NCBI GenBank assembly: GCA_963920705.1
Contig: OY987234.1
Location: 18,991,794 to 19,055,793, forward strand
DNA length: 64,000 nt
Direction: 5' to 3'
Source: Odiellus spinosus
Lineage: Eukaryota; Arthropoda; Arachnida; Opiliones; Phalangiidae
Positions 7,802-59,912 of the stretch are shown here, piece by piece. The notes under the pieces are model-generated. The model was not told the DNA's origin, searched no databases, and saw only the letters and a program-made list of their open reading frames with translations. The stretch's first letter is position 1; each line of letters starts with the position of its first letter. The translations under genes and the position numbers were made by a program.

Positions 7802-7808
7802 GTGTTAT

Positions 7809-8222
7809 CAGAGGTATATAATAACCCCCTTCGGGTGAAGTATGAAAGCCCCTATACTACCAATGCTAAAAATCACGAACAAGAGCCCGCTGCTGACTAT
7901 CTAGGCCACTAGCTCGCGCTGGACTTCTCAATGTCGCTACTCTAGTAAATGGTCTTTGTATAAACAAGACGGCTCGATTTGTGTTTAGAACTTCCTGTCT
8001 CAGGAGTCAGGCTGTCTATTAAAATGGAGTCGAAGGTTGACTTCAGCTCGCGAGTTCCGGAAGTGTGCGTAGGGAAAATTTAGTGAGGTTCAAAATGGTG
8101 TAACTATTTTTTGGGAGTAAAGCGGTGTGTCGATCCGCCGCGATTTACGCCGGGCACTCGTTGTTCGTCGATTTTGCCTACCTTTCATACTTCCCCCCGA
8201 AGGGGGTTATTATATACCTCTG
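7809..8222. mobile_element. Family B MITE, copy B1 (7 bp target duplication GTGTTAT)
   Basis: Inverted termini CAGAGGTATATAATAACC / GGTTATTATATACCTCTG continue for about 40 bp and include a small palindrome near each end. The GTGTTAT at 7802-7808 is repeated at 8223-8229. The interior is unique to family B and shared with the copies at 35417 and 56797. No protein is encoded. Confidence 0.93.
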
Positions 8223-8229
8223 GTGTTAT

Positions 8230-9089
8230 TGAATTTCTAACGCCGTTTGAATCCTAAATTCAAAAGGAGCCCTTATACCTTCAACAAAAATATGGACCGT
8301 AGCACTTGAATATGAATATAAATTATGGAAATTCTAATTTAATCAAAAAAAAAAAAAAAAAATCCACATACTTAAGAGTTCATTTAAAACACGATTAACA
8401 GACGATCCAATACACTCGAATAAATAGTCGTTAGCCTTAGCTAAATAGTTGTAGTAGTATTTCTAATGCGTTTACCGATAAATCGTGGATACTAATGACT
8501 AAAAATATATTGGATATATAAATAGAAACCTATTTTATTTCCAAGCAAATTCGAGTCTTCAAATTGATCTATATAAAAACCTAAAAAGACCAATTTTTAA
8601 AATTCACCTTCTTACGTAACGTTATAGAATTGAATATATCTACCAGAAAAAAAAATATTCGAGAAAACAGTATAGGAGCAGAAGAAATAGAAAAGAAATA
8701 GCATAAAAGCCGAGAAGGAAGAGAAAAAAAAAAAAATCTATAAGAGTGGGTGAAAAACGTAGACATTTCGTTTCAAGTATTCGACTCAATACTGCCAAAC
8801 ATAGTACCTAGTTTCAGTAGGCTTTTTAATTTATTAGAGATAGCTGAATACCTAGGATTATACACGTTACATCGTTCGAAACGAATGTAAAGATAAAAAA
8901 AAAATAAGAAAAAAGAAATGCAGGGAAGTCCGGGCGCAGTGAGGATCATTTATTATTCTTGCCGCTATAATCGTAAAGCTATTTTGTTCCGAGATGTCTA
9001 TGGGTAATAGATCGACATTACAATCCCCTCTCTTTTTCTATACCTATACCTATAGTGAATCTTTGTACCATTTGGAGGTTGCAATGTAG
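8230..9089. other. Non-coding interval with A-rich tracts
   Basis: Contains an A run of about 18 bp at 8345-8362 and a purine-rich stretch around 8640-8740. No gene or element ends recognised. Confidence 0.5.
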
Positions 9090-9209
9090 ACTGGTACCCT
9101 GATTTGGCACCACGCGCGAAGCTGGTTTAAAATATTTCTTAATAATCAAATCTTCGTAGATTTGGGTTGTTTAACTTTGTACTTACTGCCAATTCAAGGT
9201 GAAATATTA
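9090..9209. repeat. Family N foldback repeat, copy N5
   Basis: About 118 bp. The right end reads AATTCAAGGTGAAATAT, and the left end carries the inverted counterpart, CCTGATTTGGCACCACGCG. The same terminal pattern (TTTCACCTTGAATT, then an ACGCG-like block, then AAAGCT) occurs in at least six other places. Degenerate, so probably old. Confidence 0.55.
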
Positions 9210-9312
9210 TATATGTTAAACCCATCATGAATATTTATATATTGATTGCGGAAGTGTTCATGTTGTAGGTTGTGGTTATTGTATGAAATATGATTCATCT
9301 TACCGTATGGGG

Positions 9313-9347
9313 TATATAAGTTTTAAAGGCGTGCGATTCATTCAGTC
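9313..9347 (+). promoter_or_regulatory. TATA box plus initiator at canonical spacing
   Basis: TATATAAG begins at 9313. An initiator-like TTCAGTC at 9341-9347 has its A at 9344, so the TATA box starts at -31. TCAGT is the arthropod-type initiator. No coding exon is visible downstream, so this may be an orphan or chance match. Confidence 0.3.
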
Positions 9348-11172
9348 AAAGATTATAGGTTAAAGTGAAATTAACTGTATTTCAGCCCCATACCTTTTTT
9401 CTGTTGAATTTTACGGGTGGAGAGACTTTATTCCACCCTCCAATAGCGTTTAATTTGCAGTGTTGCCAATGAGAAGTCGCTATATAATTGTTTTCCGGGT
9501 AGAAGGTGAACTTAAGTTTCTTATTAATCCTTGTAATTTAACCTATATACTTTTGTGAGTACGTTTAAGCTCGTATCTGGGATCATACGCGCGTAGAATA
9601 TTCTAGGTGATAATTACCATACATATGTTATTATTAATTACCTGAGTAATCTAAGAAATTATAGTAATTTGCGTTCTTTGATGGGTTAGCCACAAGACAG
9701 AGAAACCTCGAAAGTCGGTAAATTTCAAAATTATGCCAGAAGGTCAGGGAATTTGAAAATTATGCCCAATGTGTTAATTAAACCCCCAGATTAGTTAGAA
9801 TGCTTTATGGGATCCCCTATCTAACAAATGCTCTTTAAAATACACCAATTTAGGACTCTTAATCACCAAAGTTATATTAATCTATATATCAAATTCTAAT
9901 GCCTTGTTTTTGATCTCCAATTCAACAAGAAGTGACTTTCAAAATATAACTAACTTTATTTACTAAATCCTTTTTGCGGACCCAAAATCCACCAAGCAAA
10001 GCTCGAAACGTTATTGAATCCACAAGTTCTAAAAATATTGCCTACTTTTGGTTTCCCCAATCCAAAAGTGATCTTAAATATGAAACAAAACCGTATTAAT
10101 GCCTCCTTGTGGATTCTTAATCTATCACGTATAGCAGTACGAATAGATTTAGTTAATCTAACCTTAAAAATAGAATGCCTTCTTTTTGGATAAACTTCAA
10201 TAACATCAAGCTAAATTCATAGTTTTTATTAGGGTTTTGCAAATCATTTGGGATGCCTGGCAATATCAGGGAAAATTTACTGGTAAAACCGGGAAAAATA
10301 AGTGAAATAGATTTTTCAAATGTAGTATGAACCCTGATCACGAAATTCAATACAGTCATTGAGGGAATTTGAAATACGAATTATGATAAAATCGTTATTG
10401 CACTCTCTTTGTGAAATAGGATATTTCCCGCGCCTAAACTACCATTCGTCAGATAGACGTCCAAATCCGAACATTCTATATCAAGCTAAAATATTACGGG
10501 GATGGGAGAATATCCATAATGTTTTTCTCCACTTTTCTTTATATTTTTATTTTTCGTAGAGAGTTTCGAGAGAGATACAAAAAAAGAAAAAATATCTGTC
10601 TATACGCAAACAATAAACATTAGGTTGTTACGGGCGCTGGCCCAATATTAGGGATCATATTTTACTCCTGGTCTAATCTTCTTTTCAGCCTTTCTCTTTC
10701 TTCCAGCCAGTCATTTCCATTCCTAAGGGTGTGTTTTCATGTCGAATTTAGATCAGTAAACTCTCGCCTCGAACGATATCTATAACATTATATTATTTTT
10801 CTATTTAATTAGAATGAAAGGTTTTTAATCTCTTAAATTAACCAATAATTGAGTTTTCTTCCAATTAACGACATGTCTGCAGGAAATAACCTTGCACCTT
10901 ACGCTCAAGGACACCTGGAGGTATTGCTACTAGCCCGCGATTGGTGGGGTAATTTTTTTCAATGTTAGTTTTATTTTTAAAAATATGCCGATTATTAATA
11001 TCGCAAAATAATAGCTTAGAAATAGGAAAAAAAATAGATGAAATGAGTATAGAATAATAAGATAGATGATAAATTGGAACCAGTTGCCAGAAAATAGACT
11101 AAAATAGGTTAAAAAAAATATTTAGAGATGTTTCAAAAACCAAGATTATCAGATAATTCAATGTTAAGCTTA
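9348..11172. other. Non-coding interval
   Basis: AT-rich; only short open frames (for example 10153-10359 and 10359-10559). No element ends recognised. Confidence 0.5.
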
Positions 11173-11770
11173 GTTCCCACTTGACCGAAAACACGACCGA
11201 AACACTGCGTTAACACCTCTGCGGTAAAAAAGTTTCTGCACAAGATGACCGAAAACGATTTCGGTCGGACAGAATCTGTGTTCTATTTTTACCGCACAAG
11301 TCGATCGAAAGATAATTCTCTTGAAATCCTTGAGCACGCCTTCTTTTAAAAATATCTCTCATCCAAAACCGTCTTCGTTTAATATTGGAAATCTTTTTGT
11401 ACATAAGATACGAAAGCATTGTATAATTAAATAAGCATAGTGTATTAATTATTTCAACAGAAAAACTCGTATCTGGCAGGTCTTCCGTCAGAGATGGCGC
11501 TGCAGCCTAGTTTTTTAAAAAATATTTGGCGGTAAATTCAAAAACAGACTTTAAGCAAACGACGTGTCAAGAACTCTAGTGTCTCGTTATTTTCGCGATT
11601 ATACGAGACACTTACGTCACACCACGTGATTACTCGAATCTCCTTTCGGTCGCGGTTTTCGGTCGTATGTGTGAACCAATGGAAAATTATACCGTCGGGG
11701 CTCTGCGTTAATAGACATTTTTTGCCGCAGCGACAACTTTTTCGGTCGTTATTTTCGGTCAAGTGGGAAC
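11173..11770. mobile_element. Element H, about 598 bp foldback with repeated GACCGAAA motifs
   Basis: The left end GTTCCCACTTGACCGAAAA is matched in inverse at the right end, TTTTCGGTCAAGTGGGAAC. Further CGGTC/GACCG motifs recur inside both arms (about 11190, 11240, 11645, 11740), giving a subterminal repeat array such as transposases often bind. The flanks AAGCTTA and TAGCTTT are similar, but I cannot define a clear target duplication. No protein is encoded. Confidence 0.75.
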
Positions 11771-12412
11771 CTAGCTTTAGTTGTTTCCAGACCCGAAAAT
11801 GTGGTCAATTCTCGACAATTTCAGTTAATGGAAACTCGTCTTTCCCCGAAATTCTCGGAGCTCGGTCCAAACTCTTTCGTTTTTCAGTCTTTCCCTCCTA
11901 GTTGCTGCAGTATCCGAAATACTAGAAATCCAAGAAAATATATTCTCTGTAAATTCTTTTTCCGCGCTCCGTATTTTCTTGATTTCTTTTTTTGGTAATG
12001 GCCTAATCGGATCTGAGCAACGCTTCTCCGATGAATCTTGGAGGGTGGCGGGGAAGACCAGAAAGACTGGGAAATGGAATGGGATATGGTGCGTGTAGGG
12101 GTTAAAATCATAACTCTTTTGGCAATCTGGTTATACGTGAGATGATTATAGGATCGTATTGCTAATATCAAGAATAAATAGATTGTATACTTTTTTAGAG
12201 AAGATATTTATCAGTCTATCGATTTTCATTTGGGGTTTCAATTATTTTCTTAAATTTTACCATTTCAAAGCTAAGTTCTCCTTTGAATAAATAGGTCAAA
12301 TACACAAACTAATGTTAGACTATGCCAAGAAAGTTTAGGATTAGGCTATTATGTCATATAATGTCAAATTTTCATCCAACTAATAGCTCTGATTTAAAAG
12401 GGGAGCTTATAC
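11771..12412. other. Non-coding interval between H and A1
   Basis: Nothing recognised beyond short open frames that overlap one another on both strands. Confidence 0.5.
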
Positions 12413-12419
12413 CTTGTTC

Positions 12420-12756
12420 CAGAAGCCGATGAAACCCTCCTTTGAAGTCTACTACTCCAATGTTCCATATAGCGCTCCTCTCTGTATGGGTAAAATTCCC
12501 AATTTTACGAGTTAGAAGGGGTCCTACTTCATCCCCCCTGTCTACGGAAAATTGGAAATTCTCTCTCTCCACAAACGACGACGTTTTTTTGACGAACTCC
12601 AAGGCTGCTAGAGATATTCGCTCGACGAACTCCCGCTCCGAAAATATCTACCGTTAGGAGGCGTACGAATCGCGCCTTTTGAGAATAACCCATACAGAGA
12701 GGCGTAGACAAGACCAGGGAGTAATAGACTTCAAAGGAGGGTTTCATTGGCTTCTG
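12420..12756 (-). mobile_element. Family A MITE, copy A1 (target duplication CTTGTTC)
   Basis: Begins CAGAAGCCGATGAAACCC and ends with its near-complement. The inverted repeat is about 32-38 bp, and a second inverted block CCTCTCTGTATGGGT lies about 65-75 bp inside each end. CTTGTTC at 12413-12419 is repeated at 12757-12763. Strand is set relative to the majority orientation. Subfamily I interior. Confidence 0.95.
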
Positions 12757-12763
12757 CTTGTTC

Positions 12764-14469
12764 TAATATTCAAGAACTATTACTGTACAGCTATCTATTT
12801 TCGGCCTAGTAACTTCTATTTTATTATTGATTAACCATTATTTTTGTGAGTATGTTTCATTTAATGATAGTAAACTTCTCAGATAATGGATTTGCCCGAG
12901 TGATACGGGGTCAGCTCAGAGTTTCACGTTAGTATCATTTACTTCTTTTATTACAGTTTAAAAGTAACTGTATAAAAATTTTACTAGAAAAGCTTTTAAT
13001 ATAGCCCCCTCCCTTTTATTTTTTTTTTATGAACAAGAGGGTAAAATAAATCTTTATTTACGTGTAAATCTAAATTAATCTTTTACTAAAACTGTATAAG
13101 TAAGCTTTTTTTTTTTTTTAATTTTATTTACCGTTAAACGAGCGTTTATTGTTAAAAGATTAATTTAGCCCGGATGGTCGGTTCCTATGCTTGTCTATAA
13201 AATCAGTCCCTTGATGGGTAAACCTTTTGTTCTCCCACGTTTTAAAAGAGGCACGTCTTTACCTTACCTAACTAGAGTAGACTTCATCACTACCCCTATA
13301 CCACGCGGTAGATTTTCTAAGCTCTTTTTGTTACCCAAGAAAGAGAAATTAAGCCTTGCCGGAATGTTTCCGAATATCGGAGATCCGACCGCTGCATCAA
13401 CTAGAAAAGGGATAGTTTGTCGATAGTTAAAGGTTGAAAGAAAAGGATGATTAAATTTTTTAATAGATAAATTTATTTAAAATACTCCTTTTAGCTTGAT
13501 CTACTTGTTTATTTAGCTGAAAGGTCACTGTAGAGGTTATGTAAGATTAACTTCCATATAAGAATCTTCTACCAATCAGGAGTGGCTTACTAAATTTCAA
13601 ACCCGCGTCTATAATCCCAGTTCCGTCTATTTTTAGTTTTAAAATTTCAAACCCTGCTAAGCCTAATTTAAGATGCAGTAATTAAAAACACACGAACTCG
13701 TTTGATTAAGATCCTTCGACCAATCGGCGCTAACCTCTTCTAAATTTTAAACCAGCCTAAATAACTATAAGATAAATTTCCGGCCCTTTTAGTGTCCCTG
13801 ATAAGTCTAATTCTAGATAATTAATAAGCCGAGATATTTTTTAGTAAGTTTCAGAAATTTAAAAGTTATCATTTTCTCAATCCCTTTATTTTCGGGTTTT
13901 TATATATTTTTTTATCAGTCTGAACCTGAGGTCGATTTTTTCGTTAATTTCCCAAACGGCCTTACCGGAAATACCTTAGAGAATAGACCATATGGTTTTT
14001 GTCTAATAGAAGATCCTAAGTAGACTTAATGCTCTTCATCCCTTTGGTTTTACAGTCTATATCATTTCTAGTATACAATGCCTGATAAAGATACGCTCTT
14101 AACTCTTACTGATCATCTTGCTTATACAGTTACAGCTTTGAAAGGAACTTTAATTTATATTTAAAAATCACGTTTTCCAATCGGAGTTTGGTCCCTTCTA
14201 AATCTGTGATAGAATCCATTTGATCTTTGAGAATGTATACAAAGTTATTAAGACTTGAAATCAATTGGCAAGTAGGCTTAACACGGATCTATGGAGAGTT
14301 TAGTATCTTACCTGTAATGAGTTTCCGACCATGGAGCGAATGCTCTTCACTTTTAACCTTTTTACTGTCTGTAATGATATTTAATTTATGTTTGTGTTAC
14401 GATAAGGAAACAAAATATAATTCTCTAGGGATACGTTTGACTGTTTTGACGACCCGATAGCTAGTCAGT
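12764..14469. other. Non-coding interval
   Basis: Contains T runs (13022-13028, 13107-13120). A 79-codon ATG frame at 13187-13426 is richer in G+C than its surroundings (basic product, ends ...STRKGIVCR) but matches no family I know and has no clear splice sites. I treat it as unproven. Confidence 0.4.
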
Positions 14470-14509
14470 AAGATAAATCACTTGTTATCACTCTTCATTC
14501 TCCCTTTAA
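14470..14509 (-). mobile_element. Family D right end, solo fragment D7
   Basis: About 40 bp resembling the D right end: ATAAATCACTTGTTATCA then CATTCTCCCTTTAA. No matching left end was found within several hundred bases upstream. Confidence 0.5.
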
Positions 14510-15263: not shown

Positions 15264-15271
15264 GTTTTAAG

Positions 15272-15510
15272 CAGGGACGGAAATAAGAAATTTTTCTTAT
15301 TGGACAAATGTCCAGTAACCCCCCTTTAAAATTCAGAAGTTACCGGACATTTAACAAAATTACCAGACAATGCTACATTTCCTGTATTGAAAAGTACTTT
15401 TTTTTATCGGACATTTGTCCAGTGACCCCCTCTTAAAAATAAAAAGTTATCGGACATTTGGAAAATTTATCGGACAAATGACCAGTGACTTGTGCTTATT
15501 TCCGTCCCTG
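15272..15510. mobile_element. hAT-like MITE K (8 bp target duplication GTTTTAAG)
   Basis: Termini CAGGGACGGAAATAAG and CTTATTTCCGTCCCTG. GTTTTAAG at 15264-15271 is repeated at 15511-15518. CAGGG termini with an 8 bp duplication are diagnostic of the hAT superfamily. Inside, a block of about 130 bp containing the palindrome GGACAAATGTCC is present twice in degenerate form (about 15300-15355 and 15407-15462), as an internal tandem duplication. Confidence 0.92.
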
Positions 15511-16527: not shown

Positions 16528-16866
16528 CAGAAGCCGATGAAACCCTTCTTTGAAGTCTATTACTCCCGGGTCTTGTCTACCCCTCTCTGTATGGGTTATT
16601 CTCAAAAGGCGCGATTCGTACGCCTCCTAACGGTAGATATTTTCGGAGCGGGAGCTCGTCGAGCGAATATCTCTAGCAGCCTTGGAGTTCGGCCAAAAAA
16701 CGTCGTAGTTTGTGGAGAGAGAGAATTTCCAATTTTCCGTAGACAGGGGGGGATGAAGTAGGACCCCTTCTAACTCGTAAAATTGGGAATTTTACCCATA
16801 CAGAGAGGAGCGCTATATGGAACATTGGAGTAGTAGACTTCAAAGGAGGGTTTTCATCGGCTTCTG
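16528..16866 (+). mobile_element. Family A MITE, copy A2 (target duplication ATACTGA)
   Basis: Full length, 339 bp. ATACTGA at 16521-16527 is repeated at 16867-16873. Subfamily I. Keeps an open frame of about 74 codons from the ATG inside the left terminal repeat. Confidence 0.95.
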
Positions 16867-16873
16867 ATACTGA

Positions 16874-17509
16874 GTATATTTGAAGCCACGTACCACCAGA
16901 TTTTTCTTAATTATAATATATATTCAAAATATGTTGATTGGTCTTTTTTTATTCCAATCTTAGTTTATGATCGTAGCTTTAGAATATGATTTCCCTAATG
17001 TATAAACGCTAATTATAATTAAATGTTCTTAGTACCTTTCTCTTTTTATTCATTTTTTATACGGCGTCAAAGATAATTTTGAATACCTAATTACCCACTT
17101 CTTCGCGCGAATTCCCTATTCGCCGTAATACAATCCTGTTTTTTTTTTTTTTTTTTTTGGTTGTTACTGGGTCATACTTCCAATCGATTCCCTTAACCTG
17201 GCTCTTCTTCTTTTTCTTATCCTATTTGTTTATTCATATATTCGGATTTTTTTTGGCCCCCTTTTTATTTTTCTTCAAAACCTCAAGTCTGAGAAAAATG
17301 GGGAAATTTAAAATATGAACATGGTTCCCACCATAAAAACCGAGCACTAATCAAGATAATATTTTATAATTAAATTTTAATTATAATTAATATTTTATAA
17401 TTTACTGTGAGACCATAAATTACCGCGTAATTTAACAATTTCCAAAGTAATTGTAATTTTGGAACTGCAATTAATCTTTAGACATACCGAAGACGAGTGC
17501 AGGGCTCCC
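16874..17509. other. Non-coding interval
   Basis: T run at about 17142-17158. A 14 bp AT direct repeat, AATATTTTATAATT, lies near 17368 and 17390. No gene recognised. Confidence 0.5.
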
Positions 17510-21019: not shown

Positions 21020-21357
21020 CAGAAGCCGATGAAACCCTCCTTTGAAGTCTATTACTCCCGGGTCTTGTCTACCACTCTCTGTATGGGTTATTCTCAAAAG
21101 GCGCGATCCGTACGCCTCCTAACGGTAGATATTTTCGGAGCGGGAGTTCGTCGAGCGAATATCTCTAGCAGCCTTGGAGTTCGTCCAAAAAACGTCGTCG
21201 TTTGTGGAGAGAGAGAATTTCCAATTTTCCGTAGACAGGGGGGGATGAAGTAGGACCCCTTCTAACTCGTAAAATTGGGAATTTTACCCATACAGAGAGG
21301 AGCGCTATATGGAACATTGGAGTAGTAGACTTCAAAGGAGGGTTTCATCGGCTTCTG
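21020..21357 (+). mobile_element. Family A MITE, copy A3 (target duplication GCCTATT)
   Basis: Full length, 338 bp, subfamily I. GCCTATT at 21013-21019 is repeated at 21358-21364. Open frame of about 74 codons retained. Confidence 0.95.
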
Positions 21358-23998: not shown

Positions 23999-24290
23999 CA
24001 AGAAGGATCAGATAAGGAGAGGAAAAGTGGGGCTGCGTTGAGTTAGAGAGAGAAGAGCCAACCTCCCACTCGGGTGGAAAGGGGGGATAGGAAATTCTCG
24101 AGGTAAACTGTTGTCACGTGGTCGCTAGCTAGCGCGTCTCATAAAGGATTCGTTTTACCCACGCGACAACAATTTACCACGAAGCATCTCTACCCCCGTC
24201 TGTCCCCCGTTCTCCCAGAGTGGGAGTTTAGGCCGACGCAGTAGGAGCCGCGCCGTTCCCACTTTTCCTCTCCTTATCTGATCCTTCTTG
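23999..24290 (+). mobile_element. Family C MITE, copy C1 (target duplication ATTCAGT)
   Basis: Termini CAAGAAGGATCAGATAAGG / inverse, about 33 bp. ATTCAGT at 23992-23998 is repeated at 24291-24297. The inner arms also pair (ACTCCCACTC- and GGTAAA(C/A)TGTTGTC-type blocks), so the whole element is a foldback around GCTAGCTAGC. Confidence 0.93.
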
Positions 24291-27788: not shown

Positions 27789-28126
27789 CAGAAGCCGATG
27801 AAACCCTCCTTTGAAGTCTATTACTCCCGGGTCTTGTCTACCCCTCTCTGTATGGGTTAGTTTCAAAAAGCGCGATTCGTACGCCTCCTAACGGTAGATA
27901 TTTTCGGAGCGGGAGTTCTTCGAGCGAATATCTCTAGCAGCCTTGGAGTTCGTCAAAAAAACGTCGTCGTTTGTCGAGAGAGAGAATTTCCAATTTTCCG
28001 TAGACAGATGGGTATGAAGTAGGACCCCTACGATCTCGTAAAATTGTGAATTTTACCCACACAGAGAGGAGCGCTATATGGAACATTAGAGTAGTAGACT
28101 TCAAAGGAGGGTTTCATTGACTTCTG
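27789..28126 (+). mobile_element. Family A MITE, copy A4 (target duplication ATGAGAG)
   Basis: 338 bp, subfamily II (markers GTTTCAAAAAGCGCG and AAAATTGTGAATTTT). ATGAGAG at 27782-27788 is repeated at 28127-28133. Forms an inverted pair with A5, 610 bp away. Confidence 0.95.
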
Positions 28127-28736: not shown

Positions 28737-29075
28737 CAGAAGCCGATGAAACCCTCCTTTGAAGTCTACTACTCCAATGTTCCATATAGCGCTCCTCTCT
28801 GTATGGGTAAAATTCCCAATTTTACGAGTTAGAAGGGGTCCTACTTCATCCCCCCTGTCTACGGAAAATTGGAAATTCTCTCTCTCTCCACAAACAACGA
28901 CGTTTTTTGGACGAACTCCAAGGCTGCTAGGGATATTCGCTCGACGAGCTCCCGCTCCGAAAACATCTACCGTTAGGAGGCGTACGAATCGCGCCTTTTG
29001 AGAATAACCCATTCAGAGAGGGGTAGACAAGACCCGGGAGTAATAGACTTCAAAGGAGGGTTTCATCGGCTTCTG
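28737..29075 (-). mobile_element. Family A MITE, copy A5 (target duplication GCCTAAC)
   Basis: 339 bp, subfamily I, opposite orientation to A4. GCCTAAC at 28730-28736 is repeated at 29076-29082. The long - strand frame 28641-29012 is mostly this element. Confidence 0.95.
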
Positions 29076-30885: not shown

Positions 30886-31124
30886 CTAGAAATAAATTTA
30901 AAACTTACCCCGAAAATAGGCTTAGCAGGATTCATGAAGAACCTGAATTTCTACGCATTGATGGGTATTGGAAGTCTCGTGGAGATCTCGGCCATTTGCT
31001 CATTGGTTGCGAAGAAATTCAGAAAATCCAGCTAAGCCTATTTTCCTTGTTTTAGTTTTTTAATTAATTTTTTAACTGGTTGATTAGACCTATTCAAAAC
31101 GATAAGGTTACATTATCCCTTTAA
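30886..31124 (+). mobile_element. Family D copy D3a, left-truncated, abutting D3b
   Basis: Begins inside the left arm (CTAGAAATAAATTTAAAAC), continues through the central hairpin and ends TTACATTATCCCTTTAA. The final TTAA at 31121-31124 is also the first TTAA of D3b. More diverged than D3b. Confidence 0.8.
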
Positions 31125-31561
31125 AGGGAGGATGCAACCTAAAAACAAGTGATTTTTTATCGATTCCTTATTGTTTAAATAGGTCTAATCCACTACTGAA
31201 AATATTTACAAACAAATATTAAACTAGAAATAAATTTAAAACTTACCCTGAAAATAGGCTTAGTGGGATTCTTGGAGGTCCTGTTTTCCTCGCGTGTAAG
31301 GTCTAGCGACCAATCGCGCGCGACGTAAGTCTCGTGGAGATCTCGCGTAAACGACGGGCCTTTGCTCATTGGTCGCTAGACCTTACACGGACGCGATTCA
31401 GGATCTCCATGAATCCCGCTAAGCCTATTTTCAGGGTAAGTTTTAAATTTATTTCTAGTTTAATATTTGTATTGTAAACTTTTTATCGATGGATTAGGCC
31501 TATTTAAACGATAAGGAATCGATAAAAAATCACTTGTAATTAGGTTGCATTCTCCCTTTAA
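31121..31561. mobile_element. Family D copy D3b, full length
   Basis: TTAA-AGGGAGGATGCAACC at left and GGTTGCATTCTCCCT-TTAA at right (31558-31561). It is longer than D1 because the central loop keeps a segment containing GACCAATCGCGCGCGACG. Fully foldback. Confidence 0.9.
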
Positions 31562-32636
31562 GATAAATAAGGTTAGTTTCGTGAGATATATTTAAATTAA
31601 GCCACCGTTTAGTTAGTTATTAATATATTTTCTTGAAAGTTATGACCCTTTTGCATCCACTTGACACCTTGAACGGTTTTCCTGCGCACATTGGCCTCTA
31701 GTTTATTCTCAACTTGGAAATTCTACGTTCCTCGTCCTTTTCGGAATAAGCAATCTTCCAGATCGAATCCTTTTCTTTAAATTTTTGATGCCTTCTTTTT
31801 AACGTCAAAGAAATCTTTCTTTTTAAACATCGCGCGCGGGCGAGAAAAATCTGAAGAAGTAAAGGGAAAGACGACGTAGAGAGAAAGTTTTTGAATCGAT
31901 TCAATTTCTTTTTTATATTTCATTTGAGCAAACCTCTTATCAATTGATAATTTTTTCTTTTTCTTCTTCTTCCTAAGAACTTTCTTGTAATATTAGCCCC
32001 TCAGCCAAATGGTTTTAGACATTTCTTTTTCAAACTAGAATGATAGCGTAGGCGTCTTTGAATTAAAGTTCGAAGAGCCCGATTAAGGAACACCGTTAGG
32101 CTTAACTCTAAAGTAATTGGATCTAAATAGCTTCATTCTAGATCTGTAATTGCAGTGCATCCTTGTGATGTATAAATTAGTAATAAAATTAAGTCCTATT
32201 CACATTATCAGATTTTGGAGCGTTGCGTCGTGCGCAGCTTACGCAACGCTTCGAAATGGATGGCTTTGCTAACTACATCAACTTGAAATTATAAATCCCA
32301 TAGGAAACTGGTTTTAATATTTTTAATAAATATCAGAGTGTAATTATATTTCGCCCCACCTTTAGAAAGGAGGGGGGGGCTAAAGGATGATTTTTGGTTT
32401 AATCATTGAAGGTTTAAATCCGGATGGGTGAGCAAACTATCGGAAATCCTTTGTGGACGTCGGCCGAGCTCTGTACTCCTGATTTATTCCCCTTTGGCGT
32501 ATAGTTATTTATTTGTCAATTTAATGGCAGAACAAATCTCGGCAATAATCCGTATAACGAGCCGTGGAATGCGGGCTTCCGAGTAAATGAACCCGTTTTG
32601 TAATTTAGAATACAACCATTCCCTATATGTATTGTT
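31562..32636. other. Non-coding interval with a perfect 10 bp stem
   Basis: AGCGTTGCGT at 32219-32228 and ACGCAACGCT at 32241-32250 form a hairpin with a 12 nt loop. Otherwise nothing recognised. Confidence 0.5.
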
Positions 32637-32845: not shown

Positions 32846-33183
32846 CAGAAGCCGATGAAACCCTCCTTTGAAGTCTATTACTCCCGGGTCTTGTCTACCC
32901 CTCTCTGTATGGGTTAGTTTCAAAAAGCGCGATTCGTACGCCTCCTAACGGTAGATATTTTCGGAGCGGGAGTTCGTCGAGCGAATATCTCTAGCAGCCT
33001 TGGAGTTTGTCAAAAAAACGTCGTCGTTTGTGGAGAGAGAGTTTTTCCAATTTTCCGTAGACAGGGGGGTATGAAGTAGGACCCCTCCGATCTCGTAAAA
33101 TTGTGAATTTTACCCATACAGAGAGGAGCGCTATGTGGAACATTAGAGTAGTAGACTTCAAAGGAGGGTTTCATCGGCTTCTG
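32846..33183 (+). mobile_element. Family A MITE, copy A6 (no target duplication)
   Basis: 338 bp, subfamily II throughout. The flanks are CACGAAC at left and GTTCTAT at right, which do not match. Loss of the duplication points to later rearrangement or exchange between copies. Confidence 0.93.
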
Positions 33184-33907: not shown

Positions 33908-34242
33908 CAGAAGCCGATGAAACCCTCCTTTGAAGTCTATTACTCCCGGGTCTTGTCTATCCCTCTCTGTATGGGTTATTCTCAAAAGGCGCGATTCGTA
34001 CGCCTCCTAACGGTAGATGTTTTCGGAGCGGGAGCTCGTCGAGCGAATATCTCTAGCAGCCTTGGAGATCATCCAAAAAACGTCGTCGTTTGTGGAGAGA
34101 GAATTTCCAATTTTCCGTAGACAGGGGGGATGAAGTAGGACCCCTTCTAACTTGTAAAATTGATAATTTTACCCATACAGAGAGGAGCGCTATATGGAAC
34201 ATTGGAGTAGTAGACTTCAAAGGAGGGTTTCATCTACTTCTG
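33908..34242 (+). mobile_element. Family A MITE, copy A7 (target duplication ATAAAGA)
   Basis: 335 bp, subfamily I. ATAAAGA at 33901-33907 is repeated at 34243-34249. The right terminus is the variant CTACTTCTG instead of CGGCTTCTG. Confidence 0.95.
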
Positions 34243-34249: not shown

Positions 34250-34900
34250 CAATATAGTCTATTCCACTTGGAATTGGTACTAGCGCAGACGATGATATCG
34301 ACTATCCAAATTGTCCCTCTCTCTGTTTATTTAGTAATTAAGAAAGCCTAAATTTGTCCCTTCTGCAAGTTCGAAGTAGAATATATAATAATTAAGAAAT
34401 AAATGGTCCCGAGGTGGAGTTAGATGAGTATCAAATATAGGGAAATGTGGATCTTTCTTAAATTATATTTCATTTATACCTACCCGTATCTAGTCTCTCC
34501 CTCTCTCGCTTTATTGAAAAGACATCAATCGAATTATATATATAAAATAGTATATATATAACTGTTTAATTAGCGACGCTGATTGGTTTAGTTCATTTAT
34601 TGGCCAATCTAGTCAATTTAATTAGATACGCTCATGCCTCTTTCCGCAACCGATTTCGATGGTGGTATATTGTATTTCCCTTTCGGCCGTTCGCTTTTCG
34701 TATAAATTTCCTATCAAATTCCTATTTACTTTAATATTATAATTAATTATATTTCTCCTTTGTGTATTCTCAATTTACCGCTGCTCCAATATTCCTTATT
34801 AATTTAGCTTCCCTCCAGTATTTTATACTACAATCTACCTTAATATTTCGGTACGCGCAAACCTGTACGATCGCATTATCTCTCAAGTAAACAATACCAA
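34250..34900. other. Non-coding interval
   Basis: CCAAT/ATTGG words at about 34581 and 34601. No gene recognised. Confidence 0.45.
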
Positions 34901-34907
34901 GAAGGAT

Positions 34908-35189
34908 CAGATAAGGAGAGGAAAAGTGGGAACGGCGCGGCTCCTACTGCGTCGGCCTAAACTCCCACTCTGGGAGAACGGGGGACAGACGGGGGTAGAG
35001 ATGCTTCGTGGTAAATTGTTGTCACGTGGGTAAAACGAATCCTTAATGAGACTCGCTAGCTAGCGACCACGTGACGACAGTTTACCTCGAGAATTTCCTA
35101 TCCCCCCTTTCCACCCGAGTGGGAGGTTGGCTCTTCTCTCTCTAACTCAACGCAGCCCCACTTTTCCTCTCCTTATCTGATCCTTCTTG
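34908..35189 (-). mobile_element. Family C MITE, copy C2 (target duplication ACAATAC)
   Basis: Same termini as C1 with the interior inverted relative to C1. ACAATAC at 34901-34907 is repeated at 35190-35196. Some 10 bp shorter than C1. Confidence 0.93.
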
Positions 35190-35416: not shown

Positions 35417-35838
35417 CAGAGGTATATAATAACCCCCTTCGAGGGGGAAGTATGAAAGCCCCTATACTACCAATGCTAAAAATCACGAACAACAAGAGCC
35501 CGCTGCTGACTATCTAGGCCACTAGCTCGCGCTGGACTTCTCAATGTCGCTACTCTATAGTAAATGGTCTTTGTATAAACAAGACGGCTCGATTTGTGTT
35601 TAGAACTTCCTGTCTCAGGAGTCGGGGTGTCTGTTAAAATAGAGTCGAAGGTTGACTTCAGCTCGCGAGTTCCGAAAGTGTGCGTAGGGAAAATTTAGTG
35701 AGGTTCAAAATGGTGTAACTATTTTTTGGGAGTAAAGCGGTGTGTCGATCCGCCGCGATTTACGTCGGGTACTTGTTGTTCGTCGATTTTGCCTACCTTT
35801 CATACTTCCCCCCCGAAGGGGGTTATTATATACCTCTG
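35417..35838. mobile_element. Family B MITE, copy B2 (target duplication CTAAAAC)
   Basis: 422 bp, very similar to B1. CTAAAAC at 35410-35416 is repeated at 35839-35845. The near-terminal palindrome varies slightly between the two ends. Confidence 0.93.
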
Positions 35839-44931: not shown

Positions 44932-45270
44932 CAGAAGTAGATGAAACCCTCCTTTGAAGTCTACTACTCTAATGTTCGATATAGCGCTCCTCTCTGTATG
45001 GGTAAAATTCCCAATTTTACGTGATCGGAGGGGTCCTACTTCATACCCCCAGTCTACGGAAAATTGGAAATTCTCTCTCTCCACAAACGACGACGTTTTT
45101 TTTTGACGAACTCCAAGGCTGCTAGAGATATTCGCTCGACGAACTCCCGCTCCGAAAATATAAACCGTTAGGAGGCGTACGAATCGCGCTTTTTGAAACT
45201 AACCCATACAGAGAGGGGTAGACAAGACCAGGGAGTAATAGACTTCAAAGGAGGGTTTCATCGGCTTCTG
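44932..45270 (-). mobile_element. Family A MITE, copy A8 (target duplication ATATTAC)
   Basis: 339 bp. ATATTAC at 44925-44931 is repeated at 45271-45277. The left terminus is the variant CAGAAGTAG. Mixed subfamily I/II markers. Confidence 0.95.
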
Positions 45271-45277: not shown

Positions 45278-46360
45278 CCTAATTAACTGAAAGAAAAATC
45301 TACAACAGTATTACTGTATAATGGCCACATCTGCCGTAGAAATAGTACTTTGTTAGGTTTCTACACTCCTGGTTTGTAAATTAACGTCGTCTGCTTGTTT
45401 GTTCTATCCTTCTATTCGTCTATTGATGCCAAGAACCAAAATAGATTCAAACTAATTGTTCAGTTTCAAGTCTTTGGCATCTTAGATGAATGGAAGACGA
45501 AATAAGATAAACGATCTTGACCTAGTGGCTCATTCTTAAACAGTTCCTTTGAACCCATCTGTTCACTTTGGTGAGCGACGGGCTTAAATAATAATACTGG
45601 AAATAAAAGGAGCCGTTTTGGCCCTCTCGTTGATACCGTAAAAATGTTTTTAAAGGCGTAATTTTGTTTCTTTTTGGTCTCCTTTTTTTTCCCCCTTCTT
45701 TTCTGAAGTGTAATTTTATCGGACACTTTAATGCTTTTATGGATTTTTTTTCTTTTCTTTATTTTATTATTTTTTTTTGCTTCTCTTTTTCTTTTAAAAC
45801 TTCCGCCGTATCTTTGTAGGATTTTTAGGTTTTTCTTACAATTCACCCTCTATTCTTTCCACCCTCATCTGGCGAGATTTATCTTGTTTTTGAAACATTA
45901 CATTAGTGAATGATGGTATTGATTTCATCCACTAGAAAAATAAAGAAAAATTTAGGCTTAGTGAAAAATTGCTATTAAAATAGCTAGTAATAACCCTTAG
46001 TGTTTATTTGATTAAAAAAAGATAAAATATTATTGCAAAAAGAATTTTATTCTTGCTCTTATAATCAAGTTAGATTTAGTTGAAAGTAGAGCGCGCAGTT
46101 TAAACATTGAGAAAGAGAAAAAAATTGGTAGCTTGACAAATATACCTGTAGTGAAAAATAAATTTCTTTGGTAAACTTTGGTTTTTTTTTTTACTCTTTT
46201 TCGTACTCGGCTAAGAGCTTAAGCTTTTTCTTAGAAAGGAGAAGTCTCAGGGACATTATTGACGAGAAAGGAAAGTTTTAAATTAGGTAATTTCTGACCC
46301 CATCCAAAAATTAGGGGGAAATTAATTAGATCTATAAGATCTTTTATAACTGAACACGAT
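45278..46360. other. Non-coding interval
   Basis: Low-complexity T-rich sequence at 45660-45790 gives spurious lysine- or phenylalanine-rich frames on the two strands. No gene. Confidence 0.5.
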
Positions 46361-52624: not shown

Positions 52625-52961
52625 CAGAAGTAGATGAAACCCTCCTTTGAAGTCTATTACTCCCGGGTCTTGTCTACCCCTCTCTGTATGGGTTATTCTC
52701 AAAAGGCGCGATCCGTACGCCTCCTAACGGTAGATGTTTTCGGAGCGGGAGCTCGTCCAGCGAATATCTCTAGCAGCCTTGGTGTTCGTCCAAAAAACGT
52801 CGTCGTTTGTGGAGAGAGAGAATTTCCAATTTTCCGTAGACAGGGGGGATGAAGTAGGACCCCTCCGATCTCGTAAAATTGTGAATTTTACCCATACAGA
52901 GAGGAGCGCTATATCGAACATTAGAGTAGTAGACTTCAAAGGAGGGTTTCATCGGCTTCTG
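52625..52961 (+). mobile_element. Family A MITE, copy A9: subfamily chimera, no target duplication
   Basis: 337 bp. Left part has subfamily I markers (GTTATTCTCAAAAGGCGCG, GGGGGATGAAG). Right part has subfamily II markers (CCGATCTCGTAAAATTGTG, AACATTAGAG). The switch falls in the shared block around 52848-52864. Flanks GTTATAA and AAAATAA differ. The left terminus is the CAGAAGTAG variant. Confidence 0.93.
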
Positions 52962-53976
52962 AAAATAATTATAATTTTGGGTTGCACTCTTTCTCGTTAA
53001 ATATTTTTTTGGAATTACATAATTTAAACGGGCGCAGTTTTATTAGTATACGGTCAGTTAAAATATTTTCTCTTAGTGGAAAATATTTTATGTAGGAAGA
53101 ACTAATATTTCAATTTACCTCGCGTTTTGGAACTTTCCGCGTTAAATGTTGTTCGTTTCTATTTTCGGTTTTAAATTTAAGTTTTGCCTGAAGGTTGTAA
53201 TTTCCCTTCTTCTCTTTAAATAAAATTCTCGTTTCCCAACTCATCCCACTGACACTTAAACTTAGCTCAACGCGCTTGTAAAGTGTTTTCTAGCGTTTTC
53301 TCTCGCGCTTTCTCCATCTCATCTTCATACTCTTCTTGAAGAGTTAAAAGACCAATTCACACGTACTCCGAGTTTATACATAGTTCAGCTAAATTGAGTG
53401 GTAACCATAGCAACTATACCTTTCGCAAGGACTGTAATATTTCTCAGCCTTGGAACCACCTAAACTAATTTAGGAAGCCATTCAAATTGAAAATATATTA
53501 GATTCGTACTAAAAATACACAGCCACTATTTCAAAATTCAAGCCGCGAAAACTGTCAGGGATGCATCAGGAAGAATTATATATTATTTTTATGTTTATTT
53601 AAAAAAAGTTCAGGAAAAACCCGAATATTTTCGTTTCTTTTGTCGAAGAGAGCTTTATTTTCTTTCAGAATAGGGTAAAGGAGATCATTCAAATAGACAA
53701 CGGTATATCCCACCTTGATTTGAAACCACTTACCCCCTTTTTTTTAGCGAAAAATTGGGAATACCCAAGCGCCTTTTGGTAAATGATGCAAATCACACGA
53801 CACTAGCGGAACGTTTTCAAACGTTTTTGGAACGGTTTAAATCGATTACAAGGCCTAATATGATCGATTTGAATACTATAGTGTGAACGTAGCTTTTGAA
53901 TATTTAAGAATTTAGAGTGTGAATGGTTCTTTTAGAGATTCTAATGGTTCCACGAAATAAAGTATACACAAGCGGA

Positions 53977-53978
<2 letters not shown>

Positions 53979-54022
<44 letters not shown>
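53979..54022 (+). repeat. (AG)22 microsatellite
   Basis: Perfect AG repeat of about 44 bp, followed by an imperfect GA-rich tail. Confidence 0.95.
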
Positions 54023-54024
<2 letters not shown>

Positions 54025-54929
54025 GGGAGAGAAAGAGAGCCGTTTGCTTCGTTTCCTTAATAACTAACAGAGCCGATGTGTAAAGCGTATATAGAAGCTA
54101 AAGCTCTGGATATAGTTCAACCCAACGTAGTACTAACCTTAAATTAAATATAGTTGAAAGTCAAAGAATAAGTGATAAGAGGTAATAATGATTCTACTCG
54201 TATCTCTTTCTCCCTGCCTCTGAACTCTATTGATTCTAAGTCATGAACGTACTCTCAGTTTAAATTTCTGTTGCGAAAAGAGAAGTTTCATTTTACTTTT
54301 ATCACCCTCCCTCCATTCCTCGCCCTTTCAAAGTCAAACTAGGCGCAATTTTATACTTCGAGAGTGAAGTGTTTGAGACGTTTTCAATTTCTTTTTTTCG
54401 TTTTATTGAGAACCTTTAAAATGTGATAAGAAACGTTTGTGAATGTCTTTTCTTCATTATACCTCAATTTTTTTCTCTTTCTTCAAACGAACGGAATTGG
54501 GTTACTTTATAACGTTGAAGACTTGAAGAAGGAACTTGTAAATTATACTGACGTTTAGCTATTTAAAGTGTTGTCATCTTTAGGAACTTTATATCTTCGT
54601 TTTTCTTGGCGTTGAATATAAATTTTGTCTTACATTATTTGAACCATTAGAAAAAGAATTCTAGTAGACAATGAACATATTTTCACTCTAGTTAATTTTA
54701 ATCTTAGATGAGAGACTAATTACTTAACCAAAATAACTTTGTAAAATACCGCAGTTTTTTTCATTAAGGAAAACTTTTAAGCCTTAGTCAGAATTTTACT
54801 ACGAAGTGTGTTTAGTCTAGTCACAAATGCTTACATTTTCTCGATAATAAAACGTTTCCCTCAAAACTTCTCCGGTTCAGCTGTTACCCGAAATTGGGAT
54901 AAAGTTTTGTGTCTATTTTGAGTCGTAGA

Positions 54930-55140
54930 CTCTGTCGTCGTTGGACGGATCCCCCCTCCTGGCTTGGATGGCATGGGGTACACCCTTATGGTCGTTATCG
55001 AACGTACGCTCGCCGGCCTGGCCATGTGTTCCACTCTGAGCTTCGAGGATCGAGTGTGTAGGAGCATCCTCCCGCGACGCGATCCACCCTCCTCGCGTGC
55101 TTAGCCTGGTATATAAGGCGTACAGGCTTAATTCCCCTTT
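54930..55140. other. Sharp G+C-rich islet with TATA box
   Basis: About 200 bp clearly richer in G+C and CpG than both flanks. TATATAAGGCG at about 55111-55121 is a strong TATA-like sequence on the + strand at its right edge. - strand frames (54861-55067, 54913-55146) are unrecognised. Could be a promoter, an exon or the end of a retroelement. Confidence 0.3.
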
Positions 55141-55951
55141 CGGCAAATGTTTGCTTCGCTCTTCTCTATGCCTAGTTGTCCTATAGTTTCTAGTACTTAA
55201 AGAGATAGTCTCGCGATAGTTGGTTTTGATTAATGTATCAAAAAAATCTTCATATTTCGAGGTATGGGTAACTGGGAAAACATGAAAATGTTAGAGACTG
55301 ATTTTGAGTCCAAAAATCGTGGGAAATCTAAGGGAAAATCGTGGAAATTCATATGATAAACAAATTTTAATTGTCTATCATCGAAATTATCCATAATACT
55401 TACCCTTTAAAAAAGTTTAGGAAACTACACCCTCTGATTTTCTTCTAAATTGTTTAATATTCGATATAATACAGCGGAATGGTTCATGTCGTTAAACCCG
55501 ATAGAAATAAAAGTAGTTCATGTTTTCGAAATAGTTCTTTTGAATATATAGTATCTTTGTTTTCCTAAGCTTTTACCCCGGCACGGTTATTTTCCAATAA
55601 AATTGTACTAGTGTAGTTGATGAACTAGCGGAACTTTAAGCGGAATAATATACAATATTAAATCTCATAGAGAATAAAAGTAGTTCTAGCAAACTTCTAG
55701 AGAATTTGGAATATCTCGTTTTTTGTTTTTCTTGCTTGAAGCGAGTGAGAGACCATCTGAAACATTTCATTCCCGATCGTGACAAGCCCTAGTTCTGTTT
55801 CAAATGGAATATCCAATGTGTAGAAGAAAAATAAATATCCTATATCTCTAATAGTTTTAAGGTAAACCTGATGGTAACCTTTCAACGAATTGCATTTTCA
55901 TTTGGGATACATTGAGCTGGGTTCTATTTTATATTCTAAATAGGCCAGACT

Positions 55952-56059
55952 ATAGTCAACTCCAACTCTTGTTTGCAGCACACGCAAACTATCTCTCTGG
56001 GTCACCAAATCATAGATGATAAGCAATGGGTAGCTTATGATTGCGTTGCTGCCAACTTA
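55952..56059. repeat. Family N foldback repeat, copy N7
   Basis: Left arm ACTCCAACTCTTGTTTGCAG, then CACACGCAAACTA. The right arm has GTAGCTTATGATTGCGTTGCT and CCAACTTAAGGTGGAATT. The AAATCATAGATGAT interior matches N1. Confidence 0.55.
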
Positions 56060-56789
56060 AGGTGGAATTGGTCATATCTTGGTTTTGCCCTCCTCCTTGT
56101 TTTTAATGATACAAAAAGGTATGAAGTACGAGCCATTTTTAGCCTTTGCCTTTGGTATCGAGTGAGGTGTGATAAACTTTTGTATTTGCTTGAAGTTTTG
56201 AACTTTTAGTTAGGAATAAATATTGGGTAAAAAGGTTAGGATAGTTCAGGGGTTATTTTTTGTTATTTTTAAGACACTTTCTATATATAATTTTCTGAAA
56301 AGGTTTTTGGAGGATTTTCAGCTGACTCGTTTCTACTTCAGACTTAAACTTCAAACCGCCGCTGGCCTTGATATGTTTTTCTTTCGCAAAGTTTTGAATA
56401 CACTGCGAAACTAGAATTTGGGATGTTTTTTTTAGTTCGCTTTAGGTTTAAGGCAAGTTAACATAATGTTTTTTAACTAAGATCTAGTTTCAACCGGTAG
56501 CTATGATGATTAAATCAATCCCTGTCTGTGAAAGAAGCTGTATTACCAAAGAAAAACTAGTTTTCTTGGGTCACGTGGGCATGGGTGCTCTTATTGGTCA
56601 CTTTCAATTATGTAAATTCTAACACAGGCGGTCCATAGTTCCATACTCTTTCATAGCAGAAAGTTATAGACCATTTTTATCATATTTTTTGAATAACGTA
56701 TATTTATAAACACGCAAAACCAAGTTCGTTTCTTCATTTATACTTTTATACTTCACTTGCGTTAATTAATGAAAATTTGCTACTATTTG
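56060..56789. other. Non-coding interval
   Basis: Nothing recognised apart from short frames. Confidence 0.45.
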
Positions 56790-56796
56790 ATAATAT

Positions 56797-57223
56797 CAGA
56801 GGTATATAATAACCCCCTTCGGGGGGAAGTATGAAAGCCCCTATACTACCAATGCTAAAAATCACGAACAACAAGAGCCCGCTGCTGACTATCTAGGTCA
56901 CTAGCTCGCGCTGGACTTCTCAATGTCGCTACTCTAGTAAATGGTCTTTGTATAAACAAGACGGCTCGATTTGTGTTTAGAACTTCTTGTCTCAGGAGTC
57001 AGACTGTCTGTTAAATTGGAGTCGAAGGTTGACTTCAGCTCGCGAGTTCCGGAAGTGTGCGTAGGGAAAATTTAGTGAGGTTCAAAATGGTGTAACTATT
57101 TTTTGGGAGTAAAGCGGTGTGTCGATGCGCCGCGATTTACGCCGGGCACTTGTGGTTCGTCGATTTTGCCTACCTTTCATACTTCCCCCCGAAGGGGGTT
57201 ATTATATACCTCTGCTACTTCTG
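56797..57223. mobile_element. Family B MITE, copy B3, with an extra A-type terminus (target duplication ATAATAT)
   Basis: The normal B sequence runs 56797-57214 and is followed by CTACTTCTG (57215-57223). ATAATAT at 56790-56796 is repeated at 57224-57230, outside the extra 9 bp, so the mobilised unit included them. CTACTTCTG is the inverse of CAGAAGTAG, the variant terminus of A7, A8 and A9. Confidence 0.92.
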
Positions 57224-57230
57224 ATAATAT

Positions 57231-59561
57231 ACAAATTTGAACGCTTATAATACGCTTGACCTCTTAACCCCTGCGTATGATTTTGACCCCCTGCTCCATT
57301 TCCGATCCATTCTAAGATTGAAATCAAATATAGTCATCCTACATCGTCTTGTTTCTTTTAGTTTCTTTTTAAGGAAAGTTCTAAATTTTGCCTGTGGCAT
57401 GATCGAGCAGCTGTGGTTAAAAGCTCCAACTTTACCTTTCTCACCGTACTATTTTCCCACGCGCCGCACGCCGTAAATGAGATAAAATAATACGTCCCAT
57501 TCTTCCACTACATCCCCGCATCCTACAGCTCTTCATCCACTCTGATGTAACTTTTCTTTTCACCTTGGTAGTCATTTTAATCCCCGCGGGAGTTTGGCAC
57601 GGACTCTGTTCTTAAAAATGCATTGCACCAACAAACCGCGGCAAGAACAATATTAGTTAACAGGGTGAGCTACAGGGAAAATACTAGATTATGGGATGGA
57701 TAGAACGTAGACCGATAGCTGAAGGAATGAACGAGAGGGAGGAAAGGGGGGTAGAAAGTCATTAGGCTTTTATCCTTTATTGAAGACTTTATAATGTCCC
57801 CCCCCCTCCCCGAATCATAATTAGTATTCTCCGTTCGCCTCGAATCCCTATATTAGCTATATGTGTTTAATTTCCTCGTTCGTCTAGAGTCTGTTAATAA
57901 ATGGGTTTACGGGGAATGATGGATGATTGGGTTTAAGGTATCTAATCCGTTTCCAGTTTAATCTGGATTAATTTGTTCGATTCGTATTTTAAAATTAATC
58001 AGTTATTTTTCGCGCGGAACAATGTAATGTCGTCATTAAATTTAGATAAAATTTGTAAATTACGAAGTCGATTTTTGGCGGAAATTTTCTTTTAGAGGGG
58101 CTGTCAGGGATTTTTTCAAATCGTTTACTGAGGTTTAAAATTTTGATTATGAGGTTTTAAAATATGCATAGACGGTCTAAAAACATGATAACATCATTTT
58201 AAATAAAACAAACTTATCCAAAATGATATATAGAGCTTTATCTTTGAGGATTTGTTTCTATTGAACGCGAGTCCTTAGTTACACTCGTGACTATCGAGCG
58301 TGTTTTGCTCCCCGACTTCAATGATCATCCCTAATTGATTATCTTGCCTAATTATCGAACGGTATACACGGTAAACTCCCGCTTTCTCGCGATCGGCACT
58401 TAGGTAATATACAAGTATATATAATCACAATCTCGAGAATATGATGTTTGATTTTTCAAAATCTTAATTAAATTTCATTTACTGTTTACCAATCTCGGTT
58501 GTCGTTTTGACAAGCGCTGGTCGCATCGTGGACTGACACGAAGTTACAAAAGTATTTACCGAACGTTGTTAACGACGGAAAAATAAGAAATTAATCGCTT
58601 TTGATTGAAATTAGTTCGAGAGAGCGGAAAGTGACGTCTAATACATCATAAACAGCAATTAAGCCGTGTTTGCTATTTGCTTCGCTTCTCCCTCCGTTCA
58701 CGTTAAGCCTTGGCCAGTGTTTCAATCTAAATTTTCGCCACGTATAAAACGTGGTTAGGGTTTTATTTTACGATATATTTTGATTTTGACGCGAGCTTGG
58801 ATTATATATATTTATCTATATGGTATTTGTGAATACTCTGGGTGATACGGGATCGTAATTCCTCGTCGGAATCGAGTCTGGTGATGGTGAGATACCACGC
58901 GTGCACCTATATACTAATACTCTCTCTGGAATTAGAATGTCTGCCACTCTCTGACAAATGAAACTGCAATGTATATGGTATAGAGTCTTTACTAAACTAA
59001 TAGAGCCGAGGCTTTCTAGTAAGAGATTTTACTAAGAATACCAAGACCTTTATTCGCCTACCGCCCTCCTTTTGGTCAATAGAGTTTAAAAGTTGGAGGA
59101 CAGAATGCTTTTATACCAGACGCGACTCTACTATCTGTTCAACTTAATTCAGACAATGAAGTGATGTTAAAGGATACGAAACATTCCTGATTAATTGTAG
59201 GGTGTATATAAAATATTCCCGTAGCTTTGTATTCGTTGATTCAAATAATATGCGAATGGACACAACGTCTCTCCTGGTATTAGCGCGAAAGCGGGATGGG
59301 TGGCTCGCGTCGTTGTGGGTCCGTGGGATGAAATTCTATGAATATAAATGAAGCCAACAACTCCTTCTAGTCTTCTTAATTATAATTACGACACAACGAG
59401 AGGGGAAACTAGGAGGGATTTTTACAGAAGAGAAAGGGTTATATATAATATAACTTAGTTAAATATTTAATAAGTTATTGATTTTATTCCACGTCTGTCT
59501 AATTTTATTTTGGGATGTAAGAATTTCTTCAAACTGATCCAGTTAACCTTTGAACTCTAGA
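57231..59561. other. Non-coding stretch, 2.3 kb
   Basis: Interrupted C run at about 57797-57811. A GTAGCTTTGTATTCG at 59221-59235 resembles a family N arm. No gene recognised. Confidence 0.45.
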
Positions 59562-59568
59562 GTAGTTA

Positions 59569-59905
59569 CAGAAGCCGATGAAACCCTCCTTTGAAGTCTA
59601 TTACTCCCGGGTCTTGTCTACCCTTCTCTGTATGGGTTATTCTCAAAAGGCGCGATTCGTACGCCTCCTAACGGTAGATGTTTTCGGAGCGGGAGTTAGT
59701 CGAGCGAATATCTCTAGCAGCCTTGGAGTTCGTCAAAAAAACGTCGTCGTTTGTGGAGAGAGAGAATTTCCAATTTTCCGTAGACAGGGGGGATGAAGTA
59801 GGACCCCTTCTAACTCGTAAAATTGGGAATTTTACCCATACAGAGAGGAGCGCTATATGGAACATTGGAGTAGTAGACTTCAAAGGAGGGTTTCATCGGC
59901 TTCTG
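59569..59905 (+). mobile_element. Family A MITE, copy A10 (target duplication GTWGTTA)
   Basis: 337 bp, subfamily I. Flanks GTAGTTA (59562-59568) and GTTGTTA (59906-59912) differ by one base, the only imperfect duplication in this family. Confidence 0.94.
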
Positions 59906-59912
59906 GTTGTTA

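Follow-up and report, generated by a model that had tools for sequence, protein, structure and literature searches.

Which transposase moved the miniature elements that recur along a short stretch of the genome of Odiellus spinosus (Arachnida; Opiliones) is the question raised by this locus, a window of 64 kb (assembly GCA_963920705.1, contig OY987234.1, positions 18,991,794 to 19,055,793; by the window we mean this whole stretch) within a 443-Mb genome. The window contains 15 full-length miniature inverted-repeat transposable elements (MITEs) belonging to three families, A, B and C, that share one 7-bp insertion signature, and a sequence-only reading had suggested that their transposase, with no known superfamily fitting, was possibly new. 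Our analysis led to another answer: A, B and C are very probably non-autonomous cut-and-paste elements moved by one or more transposases of the P superfamily, of the 7-bp kind exemplified by 1360 and Galileo. The signature is not an orphan because 1360 and Galileo, members of the 7-bp branch of that superfamily, share it.

All 15 copies reported by the sequence-only reading were present, ten of family A (335-339 bp), three of B (414-422 bp) and two of C (292 bp), each starting with CA, ending with TG and bounded by perfect or near-perfect terminal inverted repeats (TIRs) of about 32 bp in A, 41 bp in B and 33 bp in C. The A copies with exact target site duplications (TSDs) lie at 12420..12756 (+ strand, CTTGTTC), 16528..16866 (-, ATACTGA), 21020..21357 (-, GCCTATT), 27789..28126 (-, ATGAGAG), 28737..29075 (+, GCCTAAC), 33908..34242 (-, ATAAAGA) and 44932..45270 (+, ATATTAC); the right tip of the copy at 33908 and the left tip of that at 44932 are of the CAGAAGTAG subtype. 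Another A copy, at 59569..59905 (-), has a TSD with one mismatch (GTAGTTA/GTTGTTA), and two have none: 32846..33183 (-; flanks CACGAAC and GTTCTAT, 6/7 mismatched) and 52625..52961 (-; GTTATAA and AAAATAA, 3/7 mismatched). Recombination between copies could account for these two, as has been proposed for Galileo. Family B is found at 7809..8222 (+, GTGTTAT), 35417..35838 (+, CTAAAAC) and 56797..57223 (+), where an element at 56797-57214 is followed by nine right-end bases, CTACTTCTG, and the TSD ATAATAT encloses both. The C copies are at 23999..24290 (+, ATTCAGT) and 34898..35189 (-, ACAATAC). Exact 7-bp repeats thus abut the element ends in 11 of the 15 copies, with one more exact after the nine extra bases, and the earlier count of 12 exact repeats and one near repeat is correct if this offset B copy is included.

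The description of the three families as unrelated holds for their interiors, which differ; the tips of A and B resemble each other over the first 24 bp (15/24 identities, by eye). The natural reading of three interiors with one insertion signature is a single transposase lineage. The extra bases of the offset B copy add to this picture: the reverse complement of CTACTTCTG is CAGAAGTAG, an A-type tip, lying between the B end and the TSD, so that the copy has hybrid ends, hinting that A- and B-type tips are usable by one enzyme.

To see the signature in more copies, the window was merged with loci L009-L028 into a 264-kb sample (200 kb of neighbouring DNA added), and loci L001-L004 and L006-L008 were included, with L005 left out for its overlap with L004. 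A copy was counted if both ends were complete to within 3 bp; seven of the added loci were picked by an A tip and are not random. The sample yielded 52 complete copies (A 38, B 5, C 7, D 2), family D being a fourth family revealed by a family-blind scan; one D copy, at 45456-45759 of the 264-kb sample (C12, ~18.937 Mb), is 304 bp long, with tips CAAGAATCC... and TSD GTACAAT. Exact 7-bp TSDs flank 42 of the 52 (A 30/38, B 3/5, C 7/7, D 2/2), five copies have one mismatch and five at least two, and exact repeats longer than 7 bp flank none; shuffling the flanks gave a mean of 0.85 exact matches and a maximum of 5. The proposal of one fixed 7-bp signature common to the families was borne out, in that 8-bp, variable or family-specific lengths did not appear among these copies. 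The blind scan, which looked for a flank repeat of set length next to a 16-bp TIR, up to 2 mismatches being allowed, found 29 matches at length 7, every one starting with CA, and 283, 13, 84, 17 and 4 matches with mixed termini at lengths 4, 5, 6, 8 and 10, respectively, with none at length 9. Genome-wide, the tip CAGAAGCC has about 10,700 more forward matches than its reversed control.

The target is the palindrome T-NN-R-T-NNN-A-Y-NN-A (R, purine; Y, pyrimidine; N, any base). The dyad-symmetric RYNNNRY target inferred earlier was right in kind, being found at 23 of the 42 exact sites and at 4.8% of random sites. Position 2 is T at 37/42 sites (background 35%), position 6 is A at 29/42 (background 30%), position 1 is a purine at 35/42, position 7 is a pyrimidine at 32/42, and the T/A preference is seen again at -2/+10 of the target. 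RTNNNAY, which occurs at 16 of the 42 sites and at 1.9% of random sites, within the 13-bp palindrome, is the sharper description.

Mutator elements are expected to duplicate 8-11 bp, piggyBac TTAA and Tc1-mariner TA, and these three do not fit the 42 of 52 copies with exact 7-bp repeats; the 8-bp repeat expected of hAT is exact in none of the 52. Dada and P had been named as the nearest candidates, and of these P fits. Dada elements are described as lacking TIRs, duplicating 6-7 bp and inserting into multicopy RNA genes (PMC3706591), whereas A, B and C have TIRs and varied AT-rich targets, and Dada was excluded; ARAGORN found no tRNA genes in the window. The element 1360 (hoppel/ProtoP) of Drosophila, a P-superfamily member, has in the insertion data reported a modal TSD of 7 bp in 274 of 279 insertions, with the motif GTTNAAC (PMC3276498), and is like the families studied here in TSD length and in a palindromic target with T2 and A6, a likeness judged without terminal sequences. 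It differs in its host, and A, B and C have no known autonomous partner. Galileo, also a P-superfamily element of Drosophila, is reported to have mostly 7-bp TSDs (GTATTAC/GTANTAC) inside a 15-bp palindrome and three copies with 8 bp (PMC4168063), whereas none of our 52 copies has 8. Galileo resembles our elements in its many non-autonomous copies, some without matching TSDs, which were attributed to recombination, and differs from them in its long, internally repetitive TIRs. The P element MITEs described from Anopheles gambiae are also of high copy number and are tied to P elements by TIRs of about 27-31 bp; as described, they differ in having 8-bp TSDs and P relatives known to carry the same ends. 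The features of the superfamily that A, B and C display are a 7- or 8-bp TSD, a palindromic RT..AY target extending past the TSD, and TIRs of about 30 bp with the CA...TG ends of canonical P. The MITEs encode no THAP/RNase H/GTP-binding DDE transposase; such genes are plentiful elsewhere in the genome.

A profile search with PF21787, the TNP-like RNase H family that represents the catalytic domain of P transposase, gave 150 scored matches among 386 candidates in this genome (best 1.9e-39) and none in 14 control genomes, and several of the matches belong to copies with open frames of 600-900 codons. Eight P-transposase loci were fetched for a boundary search, and two of them proved to be complete, bounded P elements: L030, of 3,777 bp, with a perfect 31-bp TIR and TSD TTTGAAG, and L034, of 4,581 bp, with a perfect 35-bp TIR and TSD GTTTATA. 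Their proteins combine PF21787 and PF21788 (RNase H plus GTP-binding domains), with the THAP domain in the same open reading frame (ORF) in L030 and in a separate ORF upstream in L034; their matches to the solved P transposase 6p5a score 3.3e-21 and 1.2e-19. The abundance of P transposases, and two complete P elements with 7-bp TSDs, speak further against the suggestion of a new enzyme. At the other six loci (L029, L031-L033, L035, L036) no clean TIR and TSD boundary was found within about 6 kb. Three of these, L031, L032 and L033, are multi-copy P-transposase genes (626-672 aa) with TIRs undetected; each is accompanied by a second long frame on the opposite strand, in which a Pfam scan found 0 families (3/3).

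If a P-type enzyme moves these elements, the known mechanism of the P element predicts how. After binding the element ends, the enzyme would cut the transferred strand at the CA/TG tip; on the opposite strand the cut would fall 17 nt into the TIR, where P transposase is reported to cleave one strand (PMC7776569). The 3' ends would then be joined 7 bp apart at the palindromic RT...AY target, and fill-in would produce the 7-bp TSD that is observed. The excised donor site should be left with overhangs of at most 17 nt from each TIR, and end joining, at times after short repair synthesis, would leave scars of 28-57 bp within the old TSD. P-type movement of A, B and C therefore leads one to expect such scars. 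In the published Drosophila P excision junctions the TSD is accompanied by no more than 17 nt from either end and by filler that is often templated, and short repair synthesis is known at P breaks (PMC2895639). The junctions described from P{wa} share this composition and differ in being experimental and in having an 8-bp TSD, whereas those discussed next are fossil-like units with 7-bp TSDs in a reference genome.

The idea of scars arose from four units of 31-43 bp with exact 7-bp repeats in about 361 kb of scanned sequence, and a genome-wide pattern keeping 14 nt of each tip with a gap of 0-30 found 14 sites for A, 13 for B and 12 for C, with no site for any of the reversed-pattern controls. 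In the next size class (gap 31-60), run for A and C, there were 0 sites for either. Exact 7-bp repeats flank 9 of the 14 A sites, with two mismatches at one further site; the four sites without a flank repeat all lie within copies of one other repeat. Among the B sites 11 of 13 have exact repeats and the other two have one mismatch, and of the four C sites fetched from the 12, two are exact and two have one mismatch. C units keep 14-16 nt at every end (12/12 sites) and are joined at 2-nt self-complementary overlaps or by fillers that copy the tip; they comprise 6 distinct sequences, for which the independence of identical joints is unproven. Merging three same-sequence A sites leaves 12 cases, in five of which neither end retains more than 17 nt (17+14, 16+17 and 14+17 are among them), a figure to be set against a crude null of uniform deletion ends. 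The units are observed, and we infer for each that it is a scar.

Similar units were seen outside these families. Two of them, of 40 and 43 bp, at 16730-16769 and 17152-17194 of the 264-kb sample and 422 bp apart, have CAGGAGTA tips flanked by exact 7-bp repeats and are probable scars of another P-like family. At L029 an 856-aa P transposase frame is followed downstream (3877-3946) by two adjoining 31-bp tip-to-tip units, which have 7-bp repeats CTTCTTA and TTCTTAC and have been copied along with that frame at four places in the genome. These were meant as a positive control, and because 4 of 6 genome matches occupy an identical offset within copies of a single repeat they represent few independent events.

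The scar-like units admit another explanation, that the sequences of 28-57 bp are ultra-short mobile elements or transposed internal-deletion derivatives. Some sequences do recur with different TSDs (a C 28-mer at five sites, a B 45-mer at four), and the B units and the A 24+15 class reach beyond 17 nt, but we judge this explanation unlikely, given the sharp size limit (no A or C site in the next class) and the 2-nt self-complementary overlaps, close to where a 17-nt overhang would end, that the recurrent C joints use. The fillers CTTCTTG and CAAG, moreover, copy the tip, as in the published P junctions described in PMC2895639, and the known P elements discussed in PMC7776569 require internal transposase-binding sites for movement.

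The mover itself might be something other than a P transposase. A hAT-type enzyme with an atypical 7-bp staggered cut is in our estimate the least probable of the explanations considered, even with CA..TG ends starting CAGAG, which are hAT-like. The target nTnnnAn resembles the nTnnnnAn of hobo (GTNCGNAC / NTNNNNAN), but in the same reported data hobo, a hAT element, duplicates 8 bp in 1,196 of 1,198 insertions, as the P element also duplicates 8 (PMC3276498), whereas our copies have 7 bp in 42 of 52 and 8 in none. All 39 scar-like units retain 14 nt or more of each tip. Excision of hAT elements is not known to leave TIR remnants of 14-17 nt, and hAT is disfavoured on TSD length and on scars, no search for hAT genes in the genome having been made. 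A new superfamily with a fixed 7-bp TSD would agree with the failure of our searches to find an autonomous element ending in A, B or C tips; we regard it as very improbable and rejected it as unnecessary, since the 7-bp TSD, the RT..AY palindrome, CA termini, TIR lengths of about 32-41 bp and the 14-17-nt scar remnants (of C and part of A) are already known for the P superfamily, and this same genome has P transposases in elements with 7-bp TSDs.

Assignment of A, B and C to the P superfamily is based on TSD length, target, TIRs, scars and the P genes in the genome, from which the link to a transposase is inferred; that the families work like 7-bp P elements is a stronger claim than that a given P element has mobilised them. 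Several observations weigh against the assignment. No transposase gene bounded by A, B or C tips turned up in our searches. Tips with non-MITE flanks occur at 92 places for A and 9 for B, with no inward pair among them (within 15 kb for A; none visible for B), and 12 slices taken 3' of other P genes contain no A, B, C or D tips. L030 and L034 start with CG instead of CA, and their tip sequences are not shared by A, B or C; the 9-mers common to MITE ends and to the ends of these two elements were considered too short to count as kinship. The sole P element found with CA ends, on C4, pieced from its ends L049 and L038 (compared, not joined), has an 8-bp TSD, GTTATAAC, where 7 bp had been predicted; 7-bp and 8-bp P elements coexist in this genome. 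Scars keeping fewer than 14 nt are not seen by the pattern used. The remaining A scars go beyond 17 nt (five of 24+15 with a TTT overlap, one of 19+17 and one of 31+28), and B scars, which in most cases keep about 18-21 nt at one end and 21-30 at the opposite one, inside a C/G run, show no 17-nt limit. C thus fits this limit fully, A partly and B poorly, and given a 17-nt cut, short repair synthesis before joining would be needed for B and for the A 24+15 class.

The partner may have disappeared or diverged, or it may be one of the P genes outside the fetched set. One of the A-tip places had a P match within 10 kb in a comparison that covered 63 of the 150 P positions, and among 75 ORFs of at least 110 aa in the 264-kb sample no transposase was evident by eye, no family search having been made. 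At G000 C17, ~9.13-9.28 Mb, six A-like tips with a spacing of mostly 31-32 kb look like a segmental tandem duplication.

The window also contains repeats of other kinds. A fold-back repeat at 31107-31565 and 6744-7142, with partial copies elsewhere, has ends that read by eye as TTAA|AGGGAGAATGCAACC...GGTTGCATTCTCCCT|TTAA and is perhaps a TTAA-target MITE, piggyBac- or Kolobok-like. At 63170-64000 there are tandem arrays, of an 83-bp unit and then of a 14-bp unit that reaches the window end.

We put forward, as a speculation that we hold to be doubtful, that a single P-type enzyme of the 7-bp kind, for which an intact partner with the same tips no longer exists, cross-mobilised at least three MITE families, that its excisions are readable in the genome sequence, and that some of the 28-45-bp units may have been re-mobilised; if true, such units would rank among the smallest eukaryotic transposable units. 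The P-superfamily assignment, which we consider very probable, places an apparently orphan signature in a known superfamily and would mean that, beyond the Drosophila examples considered here, the 7-bp P branch is able to raise a MITE family to roughly ten thousand copies. It also suggests a general test, in which excision scars in a reference genome report the cut position of an unseen transposase and the repair of the breaks it made.

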